From IMG/VR virus record IMGVR_UViG_3300021373_002158, positions 1 to 28,753 of that record: 28,753 nucleotides of DNA. The stretch is one strand, 5' to 3'. Both the position numbers and the translations under genes were made by a program. The notes below the pieces were generated by a model. The model saw only the letters and a program-made list of their open reading frames with translations, did not search any database and was not told the DNA's origin. Origin of the DNA: a virus. This document shows, piece after piece, positions 24,397 to 28,211 of this stretch (positions are counted from its first letter, which is position 1; the number at the start of each line of letters is the position of its first letter).

Positions 24397-24831
24397 ATGT
24401 CAAATAATTTTGAAAAACTCGATGAGGCACTGAACGTGGAAAGTAGCATTGTAGAAGTTGAAGAAGAAACAACAAGTATTCAAAAAAAGAGACCAGAAGA
24501 AAAGACTGACATCAAAAAAGATTATGAATATACTCGTGCTAATTTGTATTCGTTAATTGAAAAAGGTCAGGAAGCAATTAATGGAATCATGGAACTTGCT
24601 GGTGAAGGTGGGAGCCCAAGAGCATATGAAGTTGCTGGTCAGTTGATCAAGAGTGTTGCTGATACAACAGATAAACTGATTGATTTGCAGAAAAAACTCA
24701 AAGACGTTGAAGAAGAAGTCGAAAAGAAAGGACCAAATAATGTTACTAATAACGCCGTGTTTGTTGGATCAACATCTGAACTACAAAAACTACTCAAACA
24801 AGGTTTTCTAAATAATAAAGAAGAATCTTAA
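24397..24831 (+). CDS. 16: Small terminase subunit gp16
   Basis: This 144-residue protein has the layout of T4 gp16 (164 residues), which assembles as a ring, recognises the DNA for packaging and stimulates the gp17 ATPase. The central segment DYEYTRANLYSLIEKGQEAI, with MELAGEGGSPRAYEVAGQLI and a following K-x-V-x-x-x-x-D-K-L-x-x-L-Q-K-K-L, is the conserved coiled-coil core. The N-terminus is acidic and probably disordered, and the C-terminal VFVGSTSELQKLLKQ resembles the gp17-contacting tail. It begins ten bases after gp15. Unusually for T4, three genes separate it from gp17. Confidence 0.9.
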   Translation: MSNNFEKLDEALNVESSIVEVEEETTSIQKKRPEEKTDIKKDYEYTRANLYSLIEKGQEAINGIMELAGEGGSPRAYEVAGQLIKSVADTTDKLIDLQKKLKDVEEEVEKKGPNNVTNNAVFVGSTSELQKLLKQGFLNNKEES

Positions 24832-24837
24832 ATTCTA

Positions 24838-26469
24838 ATGGGTTGGTCTGACAAATATAAAAAGTCAATTGACTGTGATAATCCAAAAGGATTTTCTCAG
24901 CGTTCCCATTGTCAAGGAAAAAAGAAGAAAATCAATGAATCAAAATCTGGAGACCAAGGTCTTCGTGATTGGTTTGGAAAATCAAAATCTTCTGACGGAA
25001 AACCTGGATGGGTTCAACTTGGTGGCAAATATGCAGGAAAACCCTGTGCTCGTCAACCTGGTCAAACTTCTACACCAAAATGTGGAAGTTCTAAAATGAA
25101 GAGAGATCTTTCCGATAAAGAAGAAGAAAGAGCAAGAAGAAGAAAAAATCGTTTAGATCCCAACCAACCAGAAAAGTCTGGTGGAGCAAAACCAACTAAC
25201 GTAAGAACTGAAGAAATGGACCTACAAGAAGTAAAAGATAAACCAGGTAAAGGTAGTGGCAAGAAGGACGCTTGCTATAACAAAGTAAAGTCACGTTATT
25301 CTGTTTGGCCAAGTGCTTATGCATCAGGAGCACTGGTCAAGTGTCGTAAAGTTGGTGCTGCGAATTGGGGTAATAAGACTGAAGAAAAAGATCATGAGTA
25401 TTCAATGGCACGCTCAGAGATCTCAACAATTATCTCTGCAGCAAAGAGACTGAAGAAGAAAATGGGTAAAGGTGAAGGAGAACTCAAGGCATGGGTTCAG
25501 TCAAAGATCACAAAAGCAGCGGACTACATTGATACTGCTGCTGATTATGTTGAGAGTGGTGAGCATAAGGTTGATGAAGCATGTTGGGTTGGTTACAAGC
25601 AATTGGGTATGAAGAAGAAAGGAAAGAAAATGGTTCCCAACTGTGTAAAAGAAGGTGTATGTCCGGTTTGTGGATATGATCCTTGCCAGTGCTTAGAAGG
25701 CACTATCAGTGAGATTCACTCTCAGGCACATAAACCACATGAAGTTCCAGGATCAAACATAAAAAATCTGGTTAAGAAGGCAGTTAAAAGAGTTGATATA
25801 GACGTTGATGGTGATGTGGATAAGAAAGATCCAACCACTCCTGTTGGAACTGCTGGAACAAAGAGAAAAATCCACGCACCACATGAAGTTCCCGATAGAG
25901 ATTTGAAAAAACTCGTCAAAAAAGCAGTCAAGAGAATTGACACTGATGTTGATGGTGATGTTGATAAAAATGATCCAAAAGCAGGAGATTTTGGTGAGTT
26001 TGTTCCAACACCAGATGGTAAGAAGAGAATTACAACTACCTTGAAGAAAGAATCATTCACCATCGATAAGAGTGCCCACAAAACAGCACAAAAAAGAGAA
26101 AAAATTAGAGCACTTGTAAATAGAGGTGAGGGTGGTGAAAAGGAAGTTGCCAAAAAGAAACTAGGCACTACTGCTGAACTTCCAAAATTAAAAGAGTTCA
26201 CTCAGTTTATGGAAGATTGGCAAAAAGTCAATAAGTCCGATAAAACTGATGGTATGAGTCCTGCAGCAGTTAAGGCATATCGCCGTGAGAACCCAGGTTC
26301 CAAACTTAAGACTGCTGTAACTGGTGATCCAAAACCAGGCAGTAAGGATGCTAAGCGCAGAAAGTCCTTCTGCTCGCGCTCTAAGGGGCAGCAAGATATG
26401 CATAACATTGATTGCTCAAAAACCCCCGATAAAGCAATTTGTAAAGCACGTCGCCGCTGGAAATGCTAA
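24838..26469 (+). CDS. Lysine/cysteine-rich mosaic protein between terminase genes
   Basis: This 543-residue, strongly basic protein is built of short modules seen singly in cyanophage small proteins. Residues 1-30 hold WSDKYKKSIDCDNPKGFSQR. Residues about 42-115 (DGKPGWVQLGGKYAGKPCAR, KPCARQPGQTSTPKCGSSKM) resemble DUF5872. Residues 142-168 hold a KDACYNKVKSRYSVWPSAYA unit with a C-terminal Cys. Residues 249-269 are CWVGYKQLGMKKKGKK.VPNC, and 275-285 are CPVCGYDPCQC, a probable zinc-binding knuckle. Two 35-residue repeats at 298-332 and 346-380 each end in an EF-hand-like loop (D-x-D-V-D-G-D-V-D). The end (473-543: MSPAAVKAYRRENPGSKLKT and a Cys-rich, Arg/Lys-rich tail) resembles a DUF6321-type unit. 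Charge and cysteines suggest DNA or metal binding, but the function is unknown. Confidence 0.82.
   Translation: MGWSDKYKKSIDCDNPKGFSQRSHCQGKKKKINESKSGDQGLRDWFGKSKSSDGKPGWVQLGGKYAGKPCARQPGQTSTPKCGSSKMKRDLSDKEEERARRRKNRLDPNQPEKSGGAKPTNVRTEEMDLQEVKDKPGKGSGKKDACYNKVKSRYSVWPSAYASGALVKCRKVGAANWGNKTEEKDHEYSMARSEISTIISAAKRLKKKMGKGEGELKAWVQSKITKAADYIDTAADYVESGEHKVDEACWVGYKQLGMKKKGKKMVPNCVKEGVCPVCGYDPCQCLEGTISEIHSQAHKPHEVPGSNIKNLVKKAVKRVDIDVDGDVDKKDPTTPVGTAGTKRKIHAPHEVPDRDLKKLVKKAVKRIDTDVDGDVDKNDPKAGDFGEFVPTPDGKKRITTTLKKESFTIDKSAHKTAQKREKIRALVNRGEGGEKEVAKKKLGTTAELPKLKEFTQFMEDWQKVNKSDKTDGMSPAAVKAYRRENPGSKLKTAVTGDPKPGSKDAKRRKSFCSRSKGQQDMHNIDCSKTPDKAICKARRRWKC
25729..25833 (+). repeat. Direct repeat copy A: helix plus EF-hand-like loop
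   Basis: The copy encodes 35 residues, HKPHEVPGSNIKNLVKKAVK followed by RVDIDVDGDVDKKDP. The loop D-I-D-V-D-G-D-V-D-K-K-D has acidic residues at EF-hand positions 1, 3, 5, 9 and 12, with Gly at 6 and Val at 8. Copy B starts 144 bases downstream, with 26 of 35 residues identical. Confidence 0.8.
25873..25977 (+). repeat. Direct repeat copy B: helix plus EF-hand-like loop
   Basis: The copy encodes 35 residues, HAPHEVPDRDLKKLVKKAVK followed by RIDTDVDGDVDKNDP. It keeps the complete D-x-D-x-D-G-D-V-D-x-x-D loop and the basic helix of copy A; the differences are mainly in the linker between HEVP and the helix. Confidence 0.8.
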
Positions 26470-26777
26470 TGAAAAGTTTTCAACAGTTTCTATCAGAAAG
26501 TATCACTATCAATGGTGATTTCAACGGAACCCTAAATGTAGGTGGTTCTCAACCAGAACAGGCACAAGAGTCTTTCTTTGCCGATGTTATGTGGGAAGGT
26601 AAACTATATCGTTTAGAAGTAGAAGGCAAGATGCTTTCTAAAAATGAACTAGCGGAACAAATTCAAGGAGAGTATCCTGGTGCTATCGTTCATAATGTTT
26701 ATCCTTCTCAGGTAAATACTTCAAGAATTAAAAACGCACAAAGGTATCAACCAGAAAGATTGTCTTGGAGTGAGTGA
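26469..26777 (+). CDS. Putative capsid-targeted internal protein (CTS leader)
   Basis: I choose the ATG at 26469 (TAATG overlap with the upstream stop) over the one at 26463, because it gives the start MKSFQQFLSES. That closely matches the T4 internal-protein capsid-targeting sequence (MKTYQEFIAE), which takes proteins into the prohead core and is cut by the gp21 protease after an (L/I)-x-E site, here L-S-E. The remaining 90 or so residues hold ITINGDFNGTLNVGG, then ADVMWEGKLYRLEVEGKMLS and ELAEQIQGEYPGAIVHNVYP, a small alpha/beta domain I recognise as recurring in cyanophages but cannot name. The gene yields a 102-residue precursor. I infer packaging in the capsid, with possible ejection with the DNA. 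Confidence 0.78.
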   Translation: MKSFQQFLSESITINGDFNGTLNVGGSQPEQAQESFFADVMWEGKLYRLEVEGKMLSKNELAEQIQGEYPGAIVHNVYPSQVNTSRIKNAQRYQPERLSWSE

Positions 26778-26780
26778 TTA

Positions 26781-28211
26781 ATGGCACAATTTAATAAAAA
26801 TACTCAAGATTTTTTAAATCAAGAGAGAACTCTTTTTGAAGTGAATATGATCGCCAATAAAAATGGCGAGGTAGTTACACTTGACAATCCATTCCCAGTT
26901 ACCGGAACTGTCGGAATTTCGTCAGAAACTGTTGTAACGATTAATCCAGATACAACTGCTATTGATGCATTTGGTAGAAGTAGAGTTTCTGAACCTTTTA
27001 CGCTTGGTGATTACAAACACCTTTATGCTATTGACCCAAACTTTTTCGATAGTAGTTCTGGGGCAGGTTCAACAGTATCATTTATACAAAATCAAGCCGC
27101 AGCAAGATTGCAAACTGGTATTGGTTCTACTGCATATTCAATTCACCAAACAAAGTTTTATCATCACTACCAACCAGGAAAGGGACAGTTAATTTTTAGT
27201 TCTTTTAACTTTTATGCCCCCCAACAAAATGCAACTAAAAGAACTGGATATTTTGATGACAGAGATGGAATCTATTTTGAGCAAGTTGGACTTAGTACTT
27301 CTGACGGAATAAATGCTGGTATTGGAACAAATAATTGGGTAATTAGATCTTTTGTAAGCGGGATTGCATCGGAAACAAGAATTCCACAATCACAATGGAA
27401 CAAAGATAAGTGTGATGGAACAGGAACTTCTGGATTTAATTTGGATGTTACAAAAACTCAACTTGCATTTATAGATTTCCAGTGGTTAGGTGTTGGTAGA
27501 GTCCGTTGTGGTTTTGCACATGATGGACAACTCATCACAGCACATGAATTTCTCCACTCCAACAATTTAGCAACAGTTTATATTTCTAATCCAAACCTAC
27601 CAGTCCGATGTGAAATTAGAAATACTGGTGTAGGTATTGGAGCATCTTTTGACCAGATTTGTTCTTCTGTAATGTCAGAAGGTGGATATGTAGAAAGTGG
27701 TATTGACTTTGCTTACACAATGACTACTACAAGAACTACGCCAACACCAGCAGGAACAGAACTTCCTTTGATTGCAATTCGTCTTAAAAATACTTTCCAA
27801 GGATATCCAAATAGAATATCAGTTAAATTAAATAATCTTTCATTATACTGTGAGTCCAATAGTATTGTTTATAAAGTTCTAAAACTTCCAAGTTCTGCCT
27901 ATTTGAGTAATGCTGGAACTTTAACCTGGACTTCTGCTTCTAATAATAGTGGTGTTGAATATTGCATTGATGCAACAACTTATAGTGATGGTGATGAGTT
28001 TGCATCAGGATTTGTTCCTTCTGGTGCATCACAAAACTCACTTTCGCCAGTTTCTTCTGGAACATTAAGTCAGGCAAAGAAAAATATTATTGTTCAAAAT
28101 ATAGATTCAACAAACTCTGAGATTTATGTTATTGTTGTAAGAACTATTACTACTACAGGTAATGCTACTGCTGACGTTGCTTGTGCTCTTCAATGGAGGG
28201 AGATTTACTAA
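26781..28211 (+). CDS. Virion structural protein, receptor/fibre-like (476 aa)
   Basis: The ATG follows the upstream TGA by three bases. The N-terminus (QFNKNTQDFLNQERTLFEVN) leads to a short beta segment, NPFPVTGTVGIS, and then AFGRSRVSEPFTLGDYKHLY. The core includes HQTKFYHHYQPGKGQLIFSS, KRTGYFDDRDGIYFEQ, QWNKDKCDGTGTSGFNLD and FIDFQWLGVGRVRCGFAHDG, followed by NPNLPVRCEIRN. This is a conserved cyanophage and environmental-phage virion protein type that I recognise but cannot link to a T4 gene. The C-terminal 130 residues are beta-rich and variable in feel. There is no signal or membrane segment. Its place between the terminase genes is odd for an appendage protein; a head decoration or fibre role is possible. 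Confidence 0.78.
   Translation: MAQFNKNTQDFLNQERTLFEVNMIANKNGEVVTLDNPFPVTGTVGISSETVVTINPDTTAIDAFGRSRVSEPFTLGDYKHLYAIDPNFFDSSSGAGSTVSFIQNQAAARLQTGIGSTAYSIHQTKFYHHYQPGKGQLIFSSFNFYAPQQNATKRTGYFDDRDGIYFEQVGLSTSDGINAGIGTNNWVIRSFVSGIASETRIPQSQWNKDKCDGTGTSGFNLDVTKTQLAFIDFQWLGVGRVRCGFAHDGQLITAHEFLHSNNLATVYISNPNLPVRCEIRNTGVGIGASFDQICSSVMSEGGYVESGIDFAYTMTTTRTTPTPAGTELPLIAIRLKNTFQGYPNRISVKLNNLSLYCESNSIVYKVLKLPSSAYLSNAGTLTWTSASNNSGVEYCIDATTYSDGDEFASGFVPSGASQNSLSPVSSGTLSQAKKNIIVQNIDSTNSEIYVIVVRTITTTGNATADVACALQWREIY

Follow-up and report, generated by a model that had tools for sequence, protein, structure and literature searches.

Does a small protein encoded among the structural genes of a T4-like cyanophage begin with a capsid-targeting leader of the kind known from the T4 internal proteins, and, if it does, is the protein carried as cargo in the head? 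The question is raised by an open reading frame of 102 aa plus stop (positions 26469-26777, + strand) in a 28.7-kb virus record, the whole of which constitutes the window analysed here. By its PHROGs matches, the window covers structural genes of a T4-like cyanophage, encoding baseplate wedge, neck, sheath stabiliser and small terminase proteins, and the proximity of the terminase small subunit (gp16, phrog_445; 24397-24831, +) locates the gene of interest in the gp13-gp17 region. Immediately upstream is a 543-aa lysine-rich protein (24838-26469, +; 17% K, pI 9.7), whose C-terminal part is a DUF6321 domain and whose counterpart in S-SCSM1 is labelled as a virion protein in its record; downstream is a virion structural protein identified by PHROGs as phrog_1645 (26781-28211, +). 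The stop of the upstream frame and the start of the 102-aa gene share one base in the overlap TAATG (26467-26471, +). An alternative in-frame ATG is found two codons upstream, at 26463, and the homologues begin at the MKSF position. The late promoter TATAAATA has 2 sites in the window, which is not above chance.

The only PHROG match of the 102-aa protein is phrog_1742 (E = 3.1e-42), a family of unknown function that is matched over nearly the full length and for which no leader is noted in PHROGs; in Pfam no family scores above the cut-off. The protein is matched in 135 of 50,697 public phage records, all of them named as Synechococcus, Prochlorococcus or cyanophage phages, and at least 574 stretches in IMG/VR encode a relative. 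By BLAST, a phrog_1645-type neighbour follows the homologues in all 151 testable loci, and a homologue of the upstream neighbour is present in 135 of 166 loci.

The first ten codons (26469-26498, +) encode MKSFQQFLSE, a candidate capsid-targeting sequence with a cut predicted after Glu10. According to PMC9026906, the first ten residues of T4 IPIII are sufficient for packaging; targeting depends mainly on residues 4 and 7, and cutting on residues 8 and 10. Our homologue set contained 181 matches, of which one at a contig end and one weak paralogue were excluded; all 179 placed N-termini carry [FY]..F[LIM].E, 178 in the ten-residue register and one with an extra residue. The loci were drawn with six peptide patterns, one of which was the leader itself, so that the sample is tilted slightly toward leader-bearing copies. 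In each of the 117 distinct homologues residue 4 is F or Y, residue 7 is F, residue 8 is L, I or M and residue 10 is E, while position 5 is the most variable of the leader. The likeness of MKSFQQFLSE|S to a T4 internal-protein leader, on which the initial annotation was built, thus extends to every residue mapped in T4. This likeness is not a product of chance, since nine cyanophage genomes contain 13 occurrences of the strict leader motif, whereas 300 column shuffles give a mean of 0.01 and a maximum of 1. The same scan recovers ipII and ipIII in T4, and a control in which thirteen genomes were read backwards gave one match. Five of the 13 strict-motif matches lie outside the family of the 102-aa protein. 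The search for further leader-bearing genes proposed in the initial annotation was run on relatives. The notion of the leader as a hyper-conserved stretch was rejected: overall it is not under tighter constraint than the rest of the protein (pN/pS = 0.22, versus 0.12 in the linker and 0.095 in the domain described below).

In the long open segments of the window itself, the leader-pattern scan gives only one other match, LKEFTQFMED (26188-26217, +), internal to the 543-aa protein. The stretch sits directly ahead of the DUF6321 domain. It may mark a site of internal cutting or be what is left of a fused gene, in view of S-SZBM1_192, a separate, leader-bearing gene for a related C-terminal part.

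A leader of this type would be cut by a gp21-type prohead protease. Peptidase_S77, the corresponding family, is present in the records of 11 of 11 relatives and also in T4, S-SM1 and S-CRM01; none was seen in the 28.7-kb record, which is a fragment ending before gp17. The cyanophage S-CBWM1, which is not T4-like, has neither Peptidase_S77 nor a leader ORF, and its NMNAT carries no leader; as this NMNAT is reported in virions in PMC10665884, presence in the virion does not always depend on this leader.

Outside the family, the main bearer of the leader is a cytidylyltransferase/NMNAT. Of the best 80 of 569 loci, one is cut at a contig end; among the N-termini placed for the remaining 79, the pattern is matched by 71, and 8 differ from it slightly. 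This enzyme is reported in the virions of S-SM1 (PMC3037559), S-SCSM1 (PMC9602691), S-SZBM1 (PMC9146016, Table 1) and S-CREM2 (PMC10665884, Table 3); the virion-detected S-SZBM1_140 has a form of the leader shorter by one residue. In S-CREM2 (OR473000) the leader also starts three further proteins detected by mass spectrometry (PMC10665884): a SAM hydrolase, an APH/ChoK-like kinase and one of 78 residues. The virion-detected ORFs of this phage with similar leaders are 6, 13, 14 and 154. The lysine-rich ORF136 of the same phage starts MQTFSMFFSE, and its Cas9-like nuclease has a leader-like stretch that is internal, at about residues 17-26. Most of the other detected S-CREM2 proteins examined, structural ones included, have no such leader. 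In S-CRM01 (HQ615693) four annotated genes start with the leader, and the kinase has MISFDQFLSE at its N-terminus; PMC10665884 is the source for the presence of a kinase of S-CRM01 in virions. A broader search for the leader says little on the range of cargo, because among the at least 120 matching stretches 114 of those listed belong to the NMNAT family and 6 are single unrelated ORFs.

Several other sequences of this kind came to light. The survey of S-CREM2 (OR473000) and S-CRM01 (HQ615693) also showed a T4-type leader on an acetyltransferase. T4 gp61.1 (AF158101, 18966-19130, - strand), a hypothetical protein of 54 aa, begins MKTFKEFIKED, which resembles the T4 capsid leader. A 114-aa ORF of S-CAM9 (134339, +) begins MKTFRQFVND; in T4, Asp10 is reported to allow targeting and block cutting. 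S-SCSM1_93 (L284:5627-5836), a 69-aa protein labelled as a virion protein, has a leader-like C-terminus, KKRTFKEFLEYIE.

We then related the leader pattern to published virion protein lists. The pattern was set before its application to S-CREM2, in which three ORFs carry it; all three are annotated and all are detected by mass spectrometry, in a phage with 52 of 219 genes detected (p = 0.013). With S-SCSM1 and S-SZBM1 included, 4 of 7 pattern ORFs are detected versus 1.3 expected (p = 0.024). For S-SCSM1 the detected set consists of the 'virion protein' labels in its record, the total of 290 coding genes was estimated from the 293 annotated features, and a pattern match at 199830, which falls within an annotated tail-fibre gene and at no annotated start, was for that reason not counted. 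A looser pattern, admitting GTG/TTG starts and Phe at position 8, gives p = 0.003 for S-CREM2 alone and 0.008 for the combined set, values that are biased because the pattern was loosened after the S-CREM2 N-termini were known. Prohead targeting and gp21-type cutting, as put forward in the initial annotation, appear well supported at the sequence level by the retention of the T4-mapped residues, the protease in relatives and the leaders on virion-detected proteins.

The three undetected pattern ORFs are S-SZBM1_192 and two homologues of the 102-aa protein itself. The S-SCSM1 homologue has no virion label in its record, though both flanking genes are labelled, and the 30 proteins given for S-SZBM1 in Table 1 of PMC9146016 do not include the homologue. 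Neither of the two virion lists able to show a homologue contains one, such absence being weak evidence; small size is in turn a weak excuse for non-detection, as the 102-aa protein yields several tryptic peptides of usual length. This non-detection is the main result against the protein being cargo. It would also agree with an N-terminus that is T4-like by chance or common descent and has no targeting role, which we regard as highly improbable in view of the motif statistics, the recurrence of the leader on unrelated virion proteins and its absence from the protease-less phage S-CBWM1.

The same absence from both the S-SCSM1 and S-SZBM1 lists speaks for another reading, in which the leader brings the protein into the prohead, where the protease destroys it like T4 gp67, gp68 and gp22, and it leaves before or during DNA packaging, with little remaining in virions and none being ejected. 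All 117 distinct homologues keep a further L-x-E site, L61-x-E63, of the kind that is lacking from the mature parts of IPII and IPIII and occurs several times in gp67, gp68 and gp22. Against such a fate, L61-x-E63 is predicted to sit within a helix of the folded domain, and five [LI]xE sites also lie within the cytidylyltransferase found in virions, from which it follows that a site of this type does not imply destruction. We consider this outcome possible, though on balance unlikely.

The mature portion had been described as a single domain of about 92 residues. The AlphaFold model suggests instead a linker followed by a small ordered domain: over most of residues 1-29 pLDDT stays below 50, and over most of residues 41-80 it is about 90. 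Residues 11-34 (26499-26570, +) would form a low-confidence, probably disordered linker, and residues 35-79 (26571-26705, +) a predicted beta-beta-alpha-beta domain. The mature protein is acidic (pI 4.93, charge -4.4; the values for T4 IPII and IPIII are pI 9.56 and 9.65), and for this reason we have not filed it as a relative of IPI-IPIII. The domain is paralogous to one in the upstream lysine-rich proteins of relatives: 39 of 160 domain matches lie outside the query set, mostly in these neighbouring proteins, including S-SCSM1_29, labelled as a virion protein, and S-CREM2 ORF137, detected by mass spectrometry.

These paralogues, together with the conserved position beside a structural gene, lend some weight to an accessory structural or assembly protein, that is, a domain split off from the lysine-rich virion protein that works in head or neck assembly and does not enter the host. 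Such a role would leave unexplained the T4-type leader on the 102-aa copy, as the embedded copies are mostly without one (1 of 39 has a leader within 60 residues upstream); the Sf-FS3 paralogue of the domain carries its own leader. On this evidence we judge the accessory role rather unlikely. As the protein would be enclosed by its leader both in this case and if it were destroyed in the core, our confidence in these readings overlaps with that in targeting as such.

Comparison with known folds raises one further candidate role, in which the domain would be delivered along with the DNA and would inhibit the host RNA polymerase as T7 Gp2 does. The top Foldseek match in the PDB is the Gp2 chain 4lk0_M (E = 0.16, probability 0.99, TM by target 0.68), Gp2 also heads the VIA rows (Z = 4.5, rmsd 2.5, 49 aligned), and some viral models annotated as RNA polymerase inhibitors match as well. 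The VIA score is, however, tied with that of phi29 p6 (4.4) and near those of ribosomal chains, hhalign gives probabilities of 0.2 and 0.1 per cent with a reversed decoy scoring higher, and there is no RNA_pol_inhib match in 43 members. Homology to T7 Gp2 was rejected, given that the fold match failed the profile comparison and its Z is tied with unrelated rows, and a Gp2-like inhibitor has in our estimation very little chance of being correct. Phycobilisome linker-like rows also appear in the fold-match lists, at lower Z, and the best match to solved structures by sequence, RPA (E = 0.12), was taken as noise.

The explanation that we favor, and regard as quite likely, is that the 102-aa protein belongs to a T4-like cyanophage and is targeted to the prohead, enclosed by virtue of its leader and cut after Glu10. 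It would be expressed from the structural gene cluster, probably by translational coupling to the preceding lysine-rich protein; its first ten residues would bind the prohead core, so that the protein is enclosed while the shell forms; and a gp21-type protease would remove the leader at Glu10, so that a mature protein of 92 residues is left in the head. Thereafter the candidate fates are retention in the virion with ejection, as in the initial annotation, destruction along with the core, and a structural part beside the lysine-rich protein. We infer both targeting and cutting. The protein is probably head cargo, because its tag is T4-like and similar tags are present on enzymes found in the virions of related cyanophages. 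Because relatives have the folded domain within the lysine-rich virion protein encoded next to it, we give a role in the head interior alongside that protein no lower probability than a separate action on the host.

In leader length, residue order and mapped targeting and cutting residues the candidate resembles T4 IPII and IPIII, and the records of cyanophage relatives encode a gp21-type protease; unlike in IPII and IPIII, the mature part is acidic (pI 4.9 versus 9.6). The cyanophage cytidylyltransferase/NMNAT (phrog_395, T4-GC190) has a leader of the same kind, but is an enzyme of about 290-410 aa (S-SM1, S-SCSM1, S-SZBM1, S-CREM2), unrelated past the leader. The DUF6321 lysine-rich cyanophage virion proteins (PF19846, phrog_727), encoded by the adjacent gene and holding in relatives the paralogue of the mature domain, differ in being long and basic, with the embedded domain mostly leaderless. 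T7 Gp2 (PF16857) has a similar small beta-beta-alpha-beta arrangement, without sequence-profile support. Basic proteins with similar capsid-targeting sequences are known in T4 relatives (PMC9026906). In a literature search outside subscription papers, the one paper bringing together cyanophages and capsid targeting was a T4 review, and none of the papers listed, PMC9026906 and PMC5694885 among them, appeared to describe such leaders in cyanophages.

Targeting of the T4 type is already known, and the more interesting lead is a wider cyanophage cargo code. We advance tentatively the idea that one entry code, M-K-x-F-x-x-F-L-x-E, loads in T4-like cyanophages a set of cargo destined, together with the DNA, for the photosynthetic host: NMNAT/cytidylyltransferase, SAM hydrolase, kinases, acetyltransferase, Cas9-like nuclease and the small domain. 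If this were true, the small protein would have a target in the host, on which it would act within minutes of infection, and a Gp2-like grip on RNA polymerase would be one possible form of that action. Mass spectrometry has time and again detected metabolic and regulatory enzymes in cyanophage virions, and the authors of the S-CREM2 study (PMC10665884) could not exclude co-purification; the T4-type leader on several of these proteins would be a simple mechanism for loading them. The 102-aa gene is a conserved unknown of the leader-bearing kind, and a leader on such proteins would make the cargo predictable from sequence alone in the phages of very abundant marine cyanobacteria.
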